A stretch of 64,000 nt of DNA, taken from contig NZ_NIDE01000003.1 of NCBI RefSeq assembly GCF_002197845.1, forward strand, positions 248,001 to 312,000. Reading direction: 5' to 3'. Within the stretch, counting starts at the first letter, position 1. Each line of letters begins with the position of its first letter. Of this stretch, positions 46,079-50,578 are shown piece by piece. Under the pieces are notes generated by a model. That model saw only the letters and a list, made by a program, of their open reading frames with translations, did not search any database and was not told where the DNA came from. This stretch comes from Fimbriiglobus ruber (GTDB taxonomy: Bacteria > Planctomycetota > Planctomycetia > Gemmatales > Gemmataceae). The position numbers and the translations under genes were made by a program.

Positions 46079-46729
46079 TCACGACTTCTCGAGCAGTAGG
46101 TCAACGACCCAGCATCCCCGGAAATGCGGCCCGTCGCCCCGACAGTGGGCGAGGATTTCTAGGTTGTCACAGTCGGCTTCTTCGAGTGCGTCCGCCAGGA
46201 TGGGGAGGCGATCGAACGCCCGATCCTGGTAAATGCCAAAAGCGAGTGATTGAACGGTCGGCGTTAGCCACCACGAGCCTGGGCGGACGGGTCGAAACGG
46301 GTTGCCGAAGATGTCACGAAGGATTTCTGCCTGCTGTTTTTTGACGACATGCCGGAACGTCCGCGGGAGGGCACGTCGTCCCGAATCCCTGGTTTCCTTG
46401 ACCCAGAGGGTCAGTGCCAAGTGTTCTGCCGTAGTAAGCACGGTTGAACGAAACTCGTTGCCAATCACTTCATCTTCGAACCCGCTCGAGTACGGTCGTT
46501 TGATCCGCAACTCTTCACGAATACGATCCACTTCGTCTTCTGCGATCGCGCCATCAGCAATTCGTTCGCCCATCTCGATTGCGGAACGGGTTAACGGCGA
46601 CTTTGTCAAATCCCAGAATCGACGCCCCAAAGCACAAAAGAAGAGTCGAAGTTTACGGCGATCGCGACCGCGAAGAAAATTCAGCAGGGTTTCGGTGTCG
46701 TCGCAAGCCAACCACTCGGCTTCGGTCAT
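46079..46729 (-). CDS. lineage-specific MTEAEW-type protein
   Basis: 216 residues from ATG 46729 (AGGA 7 nt upstream); the longer frame to 46921 is not needed. The N terminus MTEAEWLACDD...LLNFLRGRDRRKLRLFFCALGRRFW resembles a family I recall as greatly expanded in Gemmata-like planctomycetes (recollection, not searched). Function unknown; probably soluble and helical, ending in ...LPILADALEEADCDNLEILAH. The gene lies between two ~97-bp direct repeats, as if captured or inserted as a cassette. Confidence 0.75.
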   Translation of the reverse strand: MTEAEWLACDDTETLLNFLRGRDRRKLRLFFCALGRRFWDLTKSPLTRSAIEMGERIADGAIAEDEVDRIREELRIKRPYSSGFEDEVIGNEFRSTVLTTAEHLALTLWVKETRDSGRRALPRTFRHVVKKQQAEILRDIFGNPFRPVRPGSWWLTPTVQSLAFGIYQDRAFDRLPILADALEEADCDNLEILAHCRGDGPHFRGCWVVDLLLEKS

Positions 46730-46927
46730 AACTCGTTCCTGTGGTTGGCTATTTGGAACACTCGTTGTCCTGGCAAAGCGAAGTCTTCGTCGGGCGGAAA
46801 CGGCCCTACGGCACGCGGTTCCGGACCGACGGCCGATCGCACCGTCTCTGCCCCCGAATCTGGGACACGCCATTTCTTGAGAAGTTCGCGGTATCGAGCG
46901 TTTGATGTCATTTCGCGCCATGAAGCC

Positions 46928-47025
46928 GGCCGCGCAGTTCGGGTTGCATCCGATTCCGGCTCCGGGCTAGCATGGCGGCCGCGGCGCAAGGATCGCGCGC
47001 CGCGAGCCCCGCATTCCCGCGCACG
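46928..47025. repeat. ~97-bp direct repeat, copy 2
   Basis: Partner of 45803-45899. It covers about 44 nt before and the first 18 codons of the gene starting at 46972. Either that gene's 5' end was duplicated or both copies are one dispersed repeat and the real start lies downstream. Confidence 0.8.
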
Positions 47026-47925
47026 GACGCCGTTGTGGCCGACAAACATACGCACATGATCGTCGCCGCCCTCACCCGGGCCGCGGCCGACCCGACCGGA
47101 AGCCCGCTTTACGCCGGCAAGGGCGAGGTCGGGCTCTTCCCGCCCGCCGCGGCGGCCAAACCGGCCGTCAAGCGGGCGTTCGACGACGGGTTGATCGCGG
47201 TCGTCCGCACCGAAGTTAAAGGGAAGCAGACCCGCGAGTTCTGCGCGGCGACGGACAAGGGGCTGCAATTCCTGCTCGACCAGGCCAGCCCGAAACAGAT
47301 CCTCGAAGACTTCATCCGCATTCTCGAAGAACGCGCGGTCCAGGTGACCGACCTGCTCGGCGTGGCCCGCCGCATGGCCGACGAATTGACCGGCCTGCGG
47401 GCGGCCGTTTCGGCCGTCCTCCCCCAAGTCCGCGCGACGAAGGTGTCGCTCCCTGTTTCGCCCGCGTCGACCGTCGCCTTGCCCGACACCCGGGGCTTGC
47501 CCCACGACCCGCTCCCGCCGCGGACGCCCGAACCGACATTCCCGATTTCCCCCGCTACCGGTGCCCACGCCATGAACGGCGCAGCCACGCTCGACGCTCC
47601 CGCATACGCGCCCGCCGTCATCCGCAGGGCGACCGCCGAGACGGAGGCAGACGAACTCGCCGGTGCGATCCTCGCCCGGCTCTCCGACTGGGCCGCGTCC
47701 GCCGGGGCTGCCCAGGACTGCCCCCTCCCCGAGCTTTACCGCAGTCTCACGTGCCGCGAGGCGCCGCCGACCATCGGCGCGTTCCACGACAGCCTTCGTC
47801 GACTGCACGACGAATACCGGATCTACCTGCACCCGTGGACCGGCCCGCTGTACGCCCTGCCCGAACCGACCTACGCACTACTCGCCGGGCACAACATCGC
47901 TTACTACGCGTCCGCACGAAGTTAA
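46972..47925 (+). CDS. hypothetical protein, partner of the ATPase at 48020
   Basis: 317 residues from ATG 46972, which lies within a repeat; ATG 47056 (MIVAALTRAA, 289 residues) may be the true start. The first ~80 residues read like a winged-helix or PadR-like DNA-binding fold (AVKRAFDDGLIAVVRTEVKGKQTREFC ... ATDKGLQFLLDQ), then a helical, possibly coiled-coil part (ILEDFIRILEERAVQVTDLLGVARRM) and a C-terminal domain (ELAGAILARLSDWAAS...LPELYRSLTCREAPPTIGAFHDSLRRLHDEYRIYLHPW). It precedes the ATPase by 94 nt on the same strand. No family was recognised; DNA binding is inference. Confidence 0.7.
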   Translation: MAAAAQGSRAASPAFPRTDAVVADKHTHMIVAALTRAAADPTGSPLYAGKGEVGLFPPAAAAKPAVKRAFDDGLIAVVRTEVKGKQTREFCAATDKGLQFLLDQASPKQILEDFIRILEERAVQVTDLLGVARRMADELTGLRAAVSAVLPQVRATKVSLPVSPASTVALPDTRGLPHDPLPPRTPEPTFPISPATGAHAMNGAATLDAPAYAPAVIRRATAETEADELAGAILARLSDWAASAGAAQDCPLPELYRSLTCREAPPTIGAFHDSLRRLHDEYRIYLHPWTGPLYALPEPTYALLAGHNIAYYASARS

Positions 47926-47995
47926 AAATGATCAGTGGTAAAGCAAAAAACGGATGCCGGAACTGACATCGAAATTTGCCAACTATCATTTTTAA
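47922..47995. promoter_or_regulatory. AT-rich inverted repeat between the two partner genes
   Basis: TTAAAAATGAT (47922-47932) and its exact complement ATCATTTTTAA (47985-47995), 11-bp arms with a 52-nt loop. It overlaps the stop of the upstream gene and precedes the ATPase start by 24 nt. Could be a regulator operator or an mRNA structure. Confidence 0.45.
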
Positions 47996-48019
47996 GTCTG
48001 GATTTCCAGGGAGGGGATC

Positions 48020-50437
48020 ATGACCACCGCGATTAACGACGGGCTCCTGGCGGGTACTGTCCGGGATTCGCTCAAGCGGGCGGGGAATCCGTTCCGCAAC
48101 TACTTCGCCCGCAACCCGGACGACGAGGTTTGCGCGCGGTACCACGTGCCCGAGCTGTTCGCGGCCGAACGCGACCTGCTGCACGCCATCATCGACCTGT
48201 ACCGCTACGATCCGATGACCCACTCGGAAGTCGTCCCGATCCTCGGTAACAAGGGGGCGGGCAAAACGCACTTGCTCCACTCGATCAAACACGGCACCGG
48301 CGGCCAGTGGCAACTGCTCGTCACCCCGGGCGTGTACCAGAAAGACACCGACTTCCTCGAATACCTGCTCTTCCAGATCATCGACACGCTCTTGGGCGGC
48401 GGCAAGCAGAAGGGCTCGCGGCCGCTCGACTACGTCGGCGACCTGCTCGTCCGCCGGCAACTCGCGGTCGCGCTCCACGACCTGTCGGCCGACGACAAGG
48501 TTGAGCTGTTCCCGCCGCCGGGGTTCGGCCGGTGGGCCCGGCGGCTCGGGTTGGGGACCACGCAGGCCGGCGAGCGGGCCGAGTGGCTGGCCGAAAACCT
48601 GTCGGCGAACGGCACCTTCGGCCGCGTCCCGATGCCGCTCGACCACGTCCTCCGCGAAGCCGGGCTGCCGCCCGAACGGGCGTGCGAACTGCTGGCCGCC
48701 CACGCCCAGAAGACCGAGCCGCACAACGCGGCCGGGCTCATGCGCCGACAGATCTACCAGGGCTTCGCCCGCGCCGTCCTGCTCAAGAACGAGGGCGACC
48801 TGGCGAACTTCCTGACCTACGGGTTCGCGGAACTCGACTTCCAGGTCCGCCCGGCCCGCCAGGATCTGGTCCTCGCGCTGCTCAAGGTGCTGACCGACGT
48901 CTTCCGCGGGCTCAAGATCCCGGTCGTCGTTGCTTTCGACCAACTCGAAGACCTGCTCCTCGCCCGGCGGAGCGACGACGCGCACAAGATCGCGGAGGCG
49001 TTCTTCGCCGGGATCGTCCAGGGCATGCACCAGATCGACGGGCTCTGCTTCCTGGTCTTCGCCGAACGGGGCCTTTGGAACCGCTTCGTCCCGTCACTCG
49101 ACGGGTACATTCAGGACCGGTTGAACAACCCGGTCCACGTACCGCGGCTCGGGACGGTCAAGGCGATCCGCCTGGAAGCCCCGGCGCCCGACCTCGTCCG
49201 CCGGGTCGTCGAAGCCCGCCTGCGGCCGGTGCTGGACGAAGTCGCGGGCGACACGCCGCTCGACGATATTTTCCCGTTCGCCGACGATCAGGTCATGCGG
49301 ATCGCGAAGACCGAGCCGACCCTGCGGGACATGCTCCAGCAGTTCCGCCACCTGTTCGATCACCTCGTTTACGACGAGGCCCCGCGGCCCGCGGCTCCGG
49401 GCGTCGCAAACCGGCTGGTCGAACTCGGCGAGCCGGCGTTCACCGCTCCCGTTGCCCCGGCGAACACGTTCCCGGATGCGTTTACGCCGAACGATAAACA
49501 GAACCGGATTAACTCGCTGCTCGGCAAGGAACACGAAGCCCAGGTCCGGTTCAAGTCGGTAACAGTGGTCGAACACCCGGCTAACGAAGTACCGGCCCCG
49601 ACCCCGCCGGCGATCCCCACGCCTACCGCGCAGGCCCTCCCCCAAGTCGTTCAGCGCCCCGCGGCCCCCGCGCCCGCTCCGCAACCGCAACCCCAGCCGG
49701 AATCGGCGGCCGCGGGGGTGCCGCCCGCCAGTTCCTTTCCGCCCGTGGCCGAACTCCGGGCGCCCGCCCCTGTGGTGACGACCGCGCCGCCGGCGGCCGG
49801 GTCGGTGCTGTCCTTCGACGCCCTCGCCGACCTGTGGGACCAGGAATTCCGGTCCGCCAGGCGAAAGATCGAGCCGGACGGGGCTCTCACGGGTGCCACC
49901 CGCGAACTCCAGGCCGCCCTCGGCACGTTCCTCACGACGTGTCACGAACACGGCGTCAAAGTCGGCCCGTGGCGGCTCCAGCACGTCGTCCCCGAATGGC
50001 CGTTCGGCGACCACCCGACGTATGGCGCGGTCGCCCTCGCCCACTGGGCCTGCAAGGACGGCCAACCGTGGCGGGTCGCGGTCGGGCTGTTCCTGGCCCG
50101 CGGGGCGGGCAAGCCGAAAGACCTGGAAGTGAAACTCGCGGTGATGGACATCGCCCCGCAGGTGGTCGACCACCTCATCCTGCTCCGCCCGGAAGACGAC
50201 CTGATCATGACGGGCAAGAGCAAGACCCTGTGGCAGGACGCCGAGCGCCGCGGTCAGCACGCGCGGCTGGAAGCCGTCGCCCTCGATGGGTACGCCCAAC
50301 TGTACAGTTTCCCGCGGTGGCTGGCGGCCGTCCGCGAGTCGTTGCCCGAGGGCGCCCCGCTGCCGAACCTGGCCGACCTGATCCAGGAAAAGGCTGAAAA
50401 GTTGCTCGAACAGGTCTGCCTGCCGATTCAGGGATAA
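48020..50437 (+). CDS. large P-loop ATPase with unassigned C-terminal domain
   Basis: 805 residues, strong ribosome site GGGAGGGG 4-10 nt before the ATG. Residues about 25-455 form an ORC/TniB-like or STAND-like AAA module: FRNYFARNPDDEV...FAAERDLLHAIIDLY, Walker A GNKGAGKT (76-83), Walker B VVVAFDQLEDLL (Asp307) and a C-lid with PTLRDMLQQFRHLFDH. A Pro/Ala-rich linker (about 455-590) leads to a 210-residue C-terminal domain (FDALADLWDQEFRSAR...VVPEWPFGDHPTYGAV...LEVKLAVMDIAPQVVDHL...LLRPEDDLIM) that I could not assign. Followed by a 53-bp perfect palindrome. Paired with the gene at 46972. Confidence 0.82.
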   Translation: MTTAINDGLLAGTVRDSLKRAGNPFRNYFARNPDDEVCARYHVPELFAAERDLLHAIIDLYRYDPMTHSEVVPILGNKGAGKTHLLHSIKHGTGGQWQLLVTPGVYQKDTDFLEYLLFQIIDTLLGGGKQKGSRPLDYVGDLLVRRQLAVALHDLSADDKVELFPPPGFGRWARRLGLGTTQAGERAEWLAENLSANGTFGRVPMPLDHVLREAGLPPERACELLAAHAQKTEPHNAAGLMRRQIYQGFARAVLLKNEGDLANFLTYGFAELDFQVRPARQDLVLALLKVLTDVFRGLKIPVVVAFDQLEDLLLARRSDDAHKIAEAFFAGIVQGMHQIDGLCFLVFAERGLWNRFVPSLDGYIQDRLNNPVHVPRLGTVKAIRLEAPAPDLVRRVVEARLRPVLDEVAGDTPLDDIFPFADDQVMRIAKTEPTLRDMLQQFRHLFDHLVYDEAPRPAAPGVANRLVELGEPAFTAPVAPANTFPDAFTPNDKQNRINSLLGKEHEAQVRFKSVTVVEHPANEVPAPTPPAIPTPTAQALPQVVQRPAAPAPAPQPQPQPESAAAGVPPASSFPPVAELRAPAPVVTTAPPAAGSVLSFDALADLWDQEFRSARRKIEPDGALTGATRELQAALGTFLTTCHEHGVKVGPWRLQHVVPEWPFGDHPTYGAVALAHWACKDGQPWRVAVGLFLARGAGKPKDLEVKLAVMDIAPQVVDHLILLRPEDDLIMTGKSKTLWQDAERRGQHARLEAVALDGYAQLYSFPRWLAAVRESLPEGAPLPNLADLIQEKAEKLLEQVCLPIQG

Positions 50438-50440
50438 ATT

Positions 50441-50571
50441 CAGAAAAGAGATTAGCCACAGAGGTCACAGAGGCCACAGAGAGAATACAGAGAATCATTC
50501 CAAGGCAACCCGTTCGTTTCTCTGTATTCTCTCTGTGGCCTCTGTGACCTCTGTGGCTAATCTCTTTTCTG
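50441..50571. repeat. 53-bp perfect intergenic palindrome
   Basis: Arms 50441-50493 and 50519-50571 are exact reverse complements of 53 nt with a 25-nt loop. The arms carry nested repeats (TTAGCCACAGAGGTCACAGAG). It begins 4 nt after the ATPase stop and ends 8 nt before folC. It can act as a strong bidirectional terminator; same class as the arms at 13834-14463. Confidence 0.92.
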
Positions 50572-50578
50572 ATTCCGG

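Follow-up and report, generated by a model that had tools for sequence, protein, structure and literature searches.

The question raised by this locus is what a bacterium does with two genes whose protein domains resemble those of mobile counter-invader systems and whose inheritance is that of housekeeping genes. The locus lies in a window (the whole stretch of DNA analyzed here) of 64,000 nucleotides (nt) of Fimbriiglobus ruber, a member of the Gemmataceae (contig NZ_NIDE01000003.1, positions 248,001 to 312,000). It comprises two open reading frames (ORFs) on the + strand with a spacing of 94 nt, encoding a winged-helix (WH) protein (46972-47925, 317 amino acids, aa) and a large ATPase (48020-50437, 805 aa). 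A preliminary description of this DNA had proposed a candidate undescribed system made of a protein with a WH-like N terminus and an ATPase resembling ORC/TniB-like or STAND modules, with Walker A at residues 76-83 and Walker B at Asp307. These coordinates and motifs were confirmed, and a two-gene system of a WH-type protein and an AAA+ ATPase of the Orc/TniB/BrxC class is supported by the conservation of the pair. With a probability of about 0.5, we read the pair as a vertically inherited, housekeeping-type offshoot of a module of Orc/Cdc6 ATPase, inactive restriction endonuclease (REase) and winged helix-turn-helix (wHTH) protein from mobile counter-invader systems, which would have been domesticated into an ATP-driven, DNA-bound complex. 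The parts of the pair are as follows (pLDDT, predicted local distance difference test).

46972-47925, + strand: WH gene, 317 aa as called, upstream of the ATPase gene at all loci
47035, + strand: GTG, probable true start of the WH gene, giving 296 aa
47035-47286, + strand: N-terminal WH-like domain, residues 22-105, from the alignment pattern
47644-47919, + strand: C-terminal WH-like domain, residues 225-316, the most conserved part of the protein in the alignments
48020-50437, + strand: AAA+ ATPase gene, 805 aa, from the alignment and an AlphaFold2 model
48077-49384, + strand: predicted Orc/Cdc6-class AAA+ domain, residues 20-455, from VIA-align and motifs
49385-49801, + strand: disordered Pro/Ala-rich linker, residues 456-594, pLDDT mostly below 45, differing in length between homologues
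49805-50341, + strand: predicted inactive REase-like domain, residues 596-774, from a separate model, Foldseek and VIA-align
50372-50419, + strand: conserved C-terminal helix, residues 785-800, LPNLADLIQEKAEKLLEQVC region, from the alignment and the model

The ATPase is present in 86 of 95 Gemmataceae genomes, including 64 of the 66 with a completeness of 90% or more, and an order-level search of the Gemmatales found it in six out of seven genomes of the sister family. Among 393 sampled Planctomycetota genomes, there were 11 true matches, which were confined to Gemmataceae; the ATPase is absent from the remaining 382, where only two marginal P-loop matches appeared. The WH protein is distributed in this sample like the ATPase. 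The refuting case named in the preliminary description, homologues that never occur side by side, is contradicted by a survey of gene neighborhoods, which found them adjacent at every locus inspected. The WH gene is located directly 5' of the ATPase gene in 28 out of 28 distinct loci on GTDB contigs, with a gap of -4 to 215 nt, and the same adjacency is seen in nine further regions (the large gaps printed for loci L165 and L167 arise because only the C-terminal domain was matched there). The other neighbors differ between loci, with folC following the pair in a minority. Across about 37 loci, no third gene is conserved beside the pair, and no HerA, nuclease or membrane partner is kept; nor do the locus neighborhoods hold a conserved transposase, partition or effector partner. 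No relative was found on viral contigs (searched with three ATPase queries and one alignment of the HerA-fused proteins described below) or on plasmids (searched with two ATPases).

Both genes are under strong purifying selection and are therefore no chance ORFs. With the window as reference, the AAA+ and C-terminal domains of the ATPase are 76-81% identical to those of relatives, compared with 63-72% for FolC and 65-72% for TrpS from the same loci, and for the WH protein the identity is 50-60%. Pairwise ratios of non-synonymous to synonymous substitution rates (dN/dS) range from 0.05 to 0.13 for the ATPase and from 0.08 to 0.30 for the WH protein, which is thus the faster-changing partner by both measures. 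A phylogeny of 45 sequences unites the copies considered so far, which we call core copies, in one clade (support 100/99). Its basal branch is the sister family, and the copy in the window falls with its genus-mates, a topology expected under vertical descent. We should note that the tree tool flagged long branches outside the core clade, leaving the order of the outer groups unsure and the unity of the core clade unaffected. The core pair is an order-restricted unit with one copy per genome and vertical inheritance, unlike a mobile defence island.

The AlphaFold2 model of the ATPase consists of a confident AAA+ part (about residues 20-455), the disordered linker and a C-terminal domain. The AAA+ domain has its P-loop and Walker B set apart by a large helical insertion. 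Its Walker A (GNKGAGKT) and the final residue of its Walker B (VVVAFD, ending at D307) are invariant among 29 homologues. They are kept in both core and accessory copies (see below), together with R367 and R436, a putative arginine finger and a putative sensor 2 arginine by motif position. With these active-site residues kept, the protein is expected to be an active ATPase. VIA-align 2 ranked Orc/Cdc6 first (Z 13.8, 4.0 Å over 240 residues), followed by TnsC (Z 12.5), RdrA (11.6) and BrxC (11.5), whereas Foldseek alone gave no match with E <0.001 for the full model. On the strength of the modelled fold, we place the ATPase among the Orc/Cdc6-class AAA+ proteins. Neither protein of the pair matched Pfam, NCBIfam, PADLOC or PHROGs above the cut-off, and a sequence search of the PDB gave no informative match. 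Below the threshold, nSTAND_NTPase5 matched the ATPase (E 0.17) and DUF6079 matched two of the 29 homologues (best E 0.12).

The preliminary description had left the 210-residue C-terminal domain of the ATPase without a fold and had proposed a fold search. That search places it as an inactive REase-like fold, an assignment that is moderately supported. Modelled alone, the domain shows the order helix-helix-three antiparallel strands-helix-strand-helix-strand-helix, which is the plan of PD-(D/E)XK restriction endonucleases. The best Foldseek match was EcoT38I (E 4.9e-4, probability 1.00), and the best rows of VIA-align include the Avs4 nuclease domain, BspD6I, EcoT38I, FokI, MspJI and the related RPB5 fold. 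None of 28 sequences has an acidic residue in strands 2 and 3, so that the (D/E)xK motif is missing and cleavage is not expected. The analysis puts a name to an ATPase and to a 210-residue domain that current family libraries leave blank.

The WH protein consists of an N-terminal WH-like domain, a variable middle part and a strongly conserved C-terminal WH-like part, as judged from alignments. The first domain closes with the wing motif '..GK..RE..A.TDKG...L', while the second follows the pattern DC.LPEL...FHD.LR.L....L...TGPLY.LPEP..AL..GH...YY. Homologues begin with (V/M)ADK, which corresponds to residue 22-23 here, so that the true start of the gene is probably the GTG at 47035. The first 21 codons as called fall mostly inside a duplicated 99-bp repeat (see below). 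All matches of the WH protein in libraries and the PDB were sub-threshold, PadR and MarR regulators among them. A solo WH paralogue, encoded without an ATPase, adjoins trpS at G000:C17:982058-982786 (L151 7972-8796) and also at L153, L154, L155 and L198.

Two kinds of relatives, accessory paralogues and HerA-fused proteins, point to a conflict-type ancestry of the pair. A profile built from core and accessory ATPases extends to proteins of 1050-1070 aa in other Planctomycetota that combine an AAA+ module, a REase-like region and a HerA ATPase. Their profile-profile alignment with the core ATPase (probability 99.2, E 2e-19) extends over the AAA+ part into the beginning of the domain that follows. 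Such HerA-fused proteins are encoded at L179 2212-5391, L180 6471-9680 and L181 6575-9727, with a WH-type gene beside each, and in these WH genes the C-terminal pattern given above recurs by eye.

The accessory paralogues are second, divergent copies of the pair with a patchy occurrence in a few Gemmataceae genomes, in several cases near integrase or primase-type genes (L152, L157, L195). At L152, L156, L158, L195, L196 and L197, the ATPase gene is followed by a gene for a protein of 197-255 residues with one to three predicted membrane segments. This gene is a trait of most accessory copies read, with the WH gene not called at L196. In a third accessory type (L185), the partner has 414 residues and a predicted segment close to the C terminus. 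A profile built from three of the membrane proteins matched in four of the 95 genomes, all with an accessory pair. The membrane partner is absent from the other 91, including this one, where no unlinked copy was found; the core pair therefore works without it. We regard the accessory cassettes of WH protein, Orc/Cdc6-iREase ATPase (iREase, inactive REase) and small membrane protein as candidates for an uncharacterized defence system.

Patchy occurrence and fast evolution are the usual marks of systems directed against mobile elements. In the Gemmatales, nearly all genomes share this domain set, which is better conserved than two housekeeping enzymes and occurs alongside patchy copies that have a membrane partner. 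The pair thus offers a case in which the conversion of a defence-type ATPase into core machinery can be tested, in bacteria whose cell biology is unusual. More tentatively, we propose that a single domestication at the root of the Gemmatales gave rise to a core chromosome-associated machine, possibly tied to the unusual chromosome or cell organization of this order, while its mobile sisters with a membrane partner may still be engaged in conflict.

The closest known systems are the mobile neighborhoods of Orc/CDC6 ATPase, inactive REase, HerA/FtsK, active REase and wHTH proteins that have been termed 'HerA/FtsK capture' and for which interception of invading DNA has been proposed (Rakesh, Aravind and Krishnan 2024, PMC10853773). 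The core pair shares with them the Orc/Cdc6-type AAA+ ATPase, the inactive REase downstream of it and the wHTH proteins in the operon. It differs in having neither HerA/FtsK nor an active nuclease, and in that no wHTH follows the iREase within one chain. Moreover, the capture systems are mobile and patchy, whereas the core pair is not mobile, occurs order-wide and evolves slowly. The domain combination is thus an already known class, and the pair deserves the word 'undescribed' of the preliminary description only with that qualifier: it has no family match above the cut-off, and the papers found contain no description of the HerA-less core version.

BrxC has been placed in the same ATPase class as the Orc/Cdc6-type proteins by a 2026 survey of BREX (PMC12839542). 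The BREX BrxC/PglY and DUF6079 ATPases resemble the core ATPase in their AAA+ fold, and wHTH DNA-binding proteins occur in these systems as well. However, no PglZ, BrxX, BrxB or BrxL is conserved beside the pair, the C-terminal domains differ and there is no PADLOC match. RdrA of the RADAR system likewise has an AAA+ core with large helical additions; the core pair differs from it in the C terminus of the ATPase and in that no RdrB deaminase partner was seen. TnsC/TniB are of the same AAA+ class, but the core pair lacks conserved transposase or target-selector neighbors. Archaeal and eukaryotic Orc1/Cdc6, the top structural match, share the putative arginine finger and the sensor 2 arginine with the core ATPase. 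They differ in that the ATPase chain ends in a linker and REase-like domain instead of a C-terminal WH domain, the WH-type domains being carried by a separate protein. The pair does not replace DnaA: DnaA-type matches were found in 26 out of 26 Gemmataceae genomes searched, so that the pair is no substitute for the initiator. Most of these 26 genomes contain two DnaA-type matches, in open frames of about 480-640 aa and about 330-380 aa.

As a mechanism, we suggest that the protein with its two WH domains would bind DNA and dock the ATPase there. ATP binding might then build a ring or filament like those of Orc or BrxC, in which the inactive REase domain could act as a recognition module for nucleic acid, a nucleotide or a protein, and ATP hydrolysis would reset or release the complex. 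Because no nuclease or translocase is encoded alongside, the output is probably not cleavage but the loading or unloading of a different chromosomal factor, or the control of genes or replication.

Several points weigh against a domesticated chromosomal complex. No genetic context at the inspected loci names a cellular process, and all known relatives of the domain set have been proposed to act in defence. Two good genomes of a single genus are without the ATPase, which is thus either not strictly essential or missing there through incompleteness of these genomes. The WH assignment is drawn from a sequence pattern. The Z-scores for the REase fold are modest (5-6, best 6.1), and the confidence of the C-terminal domain model is middling (mean pLDDT 70, predicted template modelling score 0.73).

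The reading that survives best beside it is constitutive core immunity, in which the WH protein would find foreign DNA, the ATPase would oligomerize and an effector encoded elsewhere would be triggered, the location of this effector being the only difference from the accessory copies. The Orc/Cdc6, iREase and wHTH combination is indeed a predicted counter-invader set (PMC10853773), and BrxC, RdrA and the Avs4 nuclease domain are among the nearest solved folds. However, near-universal presence in single copy and an evolution slower than that of housekeeping enzymes are unlike typical defence genes. The third gene of the accessory paralogues encodes a membrane protein, a common effector type, but this partner is missing in 91 out of 95 genomes, including this one. 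The faster evolution of the WH protein would suit a sensor of invaders, while PADLOC recognizes neither protein. We therefore consider constitutive immunity rather unlikely, and favor a domesticated chromosomal role over an immune sensor because the pair is not accompanied by a gene for a nuclease, translocase or membrane effector and its inheritance is housekeeping-like.

An ATP-dependent transcription regulator, in which the WH protein would be a promoter-binding factor modulated by the ATPase, is improbable. The two WH-like domains and the unpaired WH paralogue beside trpS in several genomes would suit such a regulator, but a modulator would need neither the size nor the far stronger conservation of this ATPase, whose closest folds are initiators and DNA loaders. 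A TniB/TnsC-like transposition or Par-like partition complex, as offered in the preliminary description, is strongly disfavored despite the fold match to TnsC, since no transposase, TniQ, TnsD or ParB/parS partner is conserved beside this near-universal, slow-evolving pair, its inheritance is vertical and single-copy, and no viral or plasmid homologues were found.

The preliminary description had also assigned three repeats to the unit: an inverted repeat between the genes, a 53-bp palindrome at the end and a duplicated repeat at the start. All three exist, but none is a conserved part of the unit.

47922-47995: AT-rich inverted repeat between the genes, 11-nt arms at 47922-47932 and 47985-47995
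50440-50572: terminal palindrome, CACAGAGGTCACAGAGG element, two perfect 55-nt arms around a 23-nt loop
45801-45899 and 46927-47025: 99-bp direct repeat, 93% identical, with these two copies only in the genome

The sequence of the inter-gene repeat is not kept in relatives, which carry unrelated palindromes or none in the gap between the WH and ATPase genes, and it was rejected as a conserved signal. Palindromes with arms of at least 15 nt occur in six out of 18 WH-ATPase gaps and in 10 out of 101 control gaps, a slight over-representation that was noticed after the fact. Long palindromes of unrelated sequence are found in this gap at L063, L066, L069, L076, L083 and L090. The terminal palindrome was rejected as part of the system, being a dispersed repeat: its 25-base core motif has 73 matches in the genome (at most two mismatches), mostly as facing pairs, with none for the reversed control. 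The two copies of the 99-bp repeat bracket an ORF on the opposite strand (46079-46921), and the arrangement resembles a duplication or insertion that took place locally, 5' of the WH gene. The neighbors of the pair in the window are folC and the genes for a two-component regulator and kinase.

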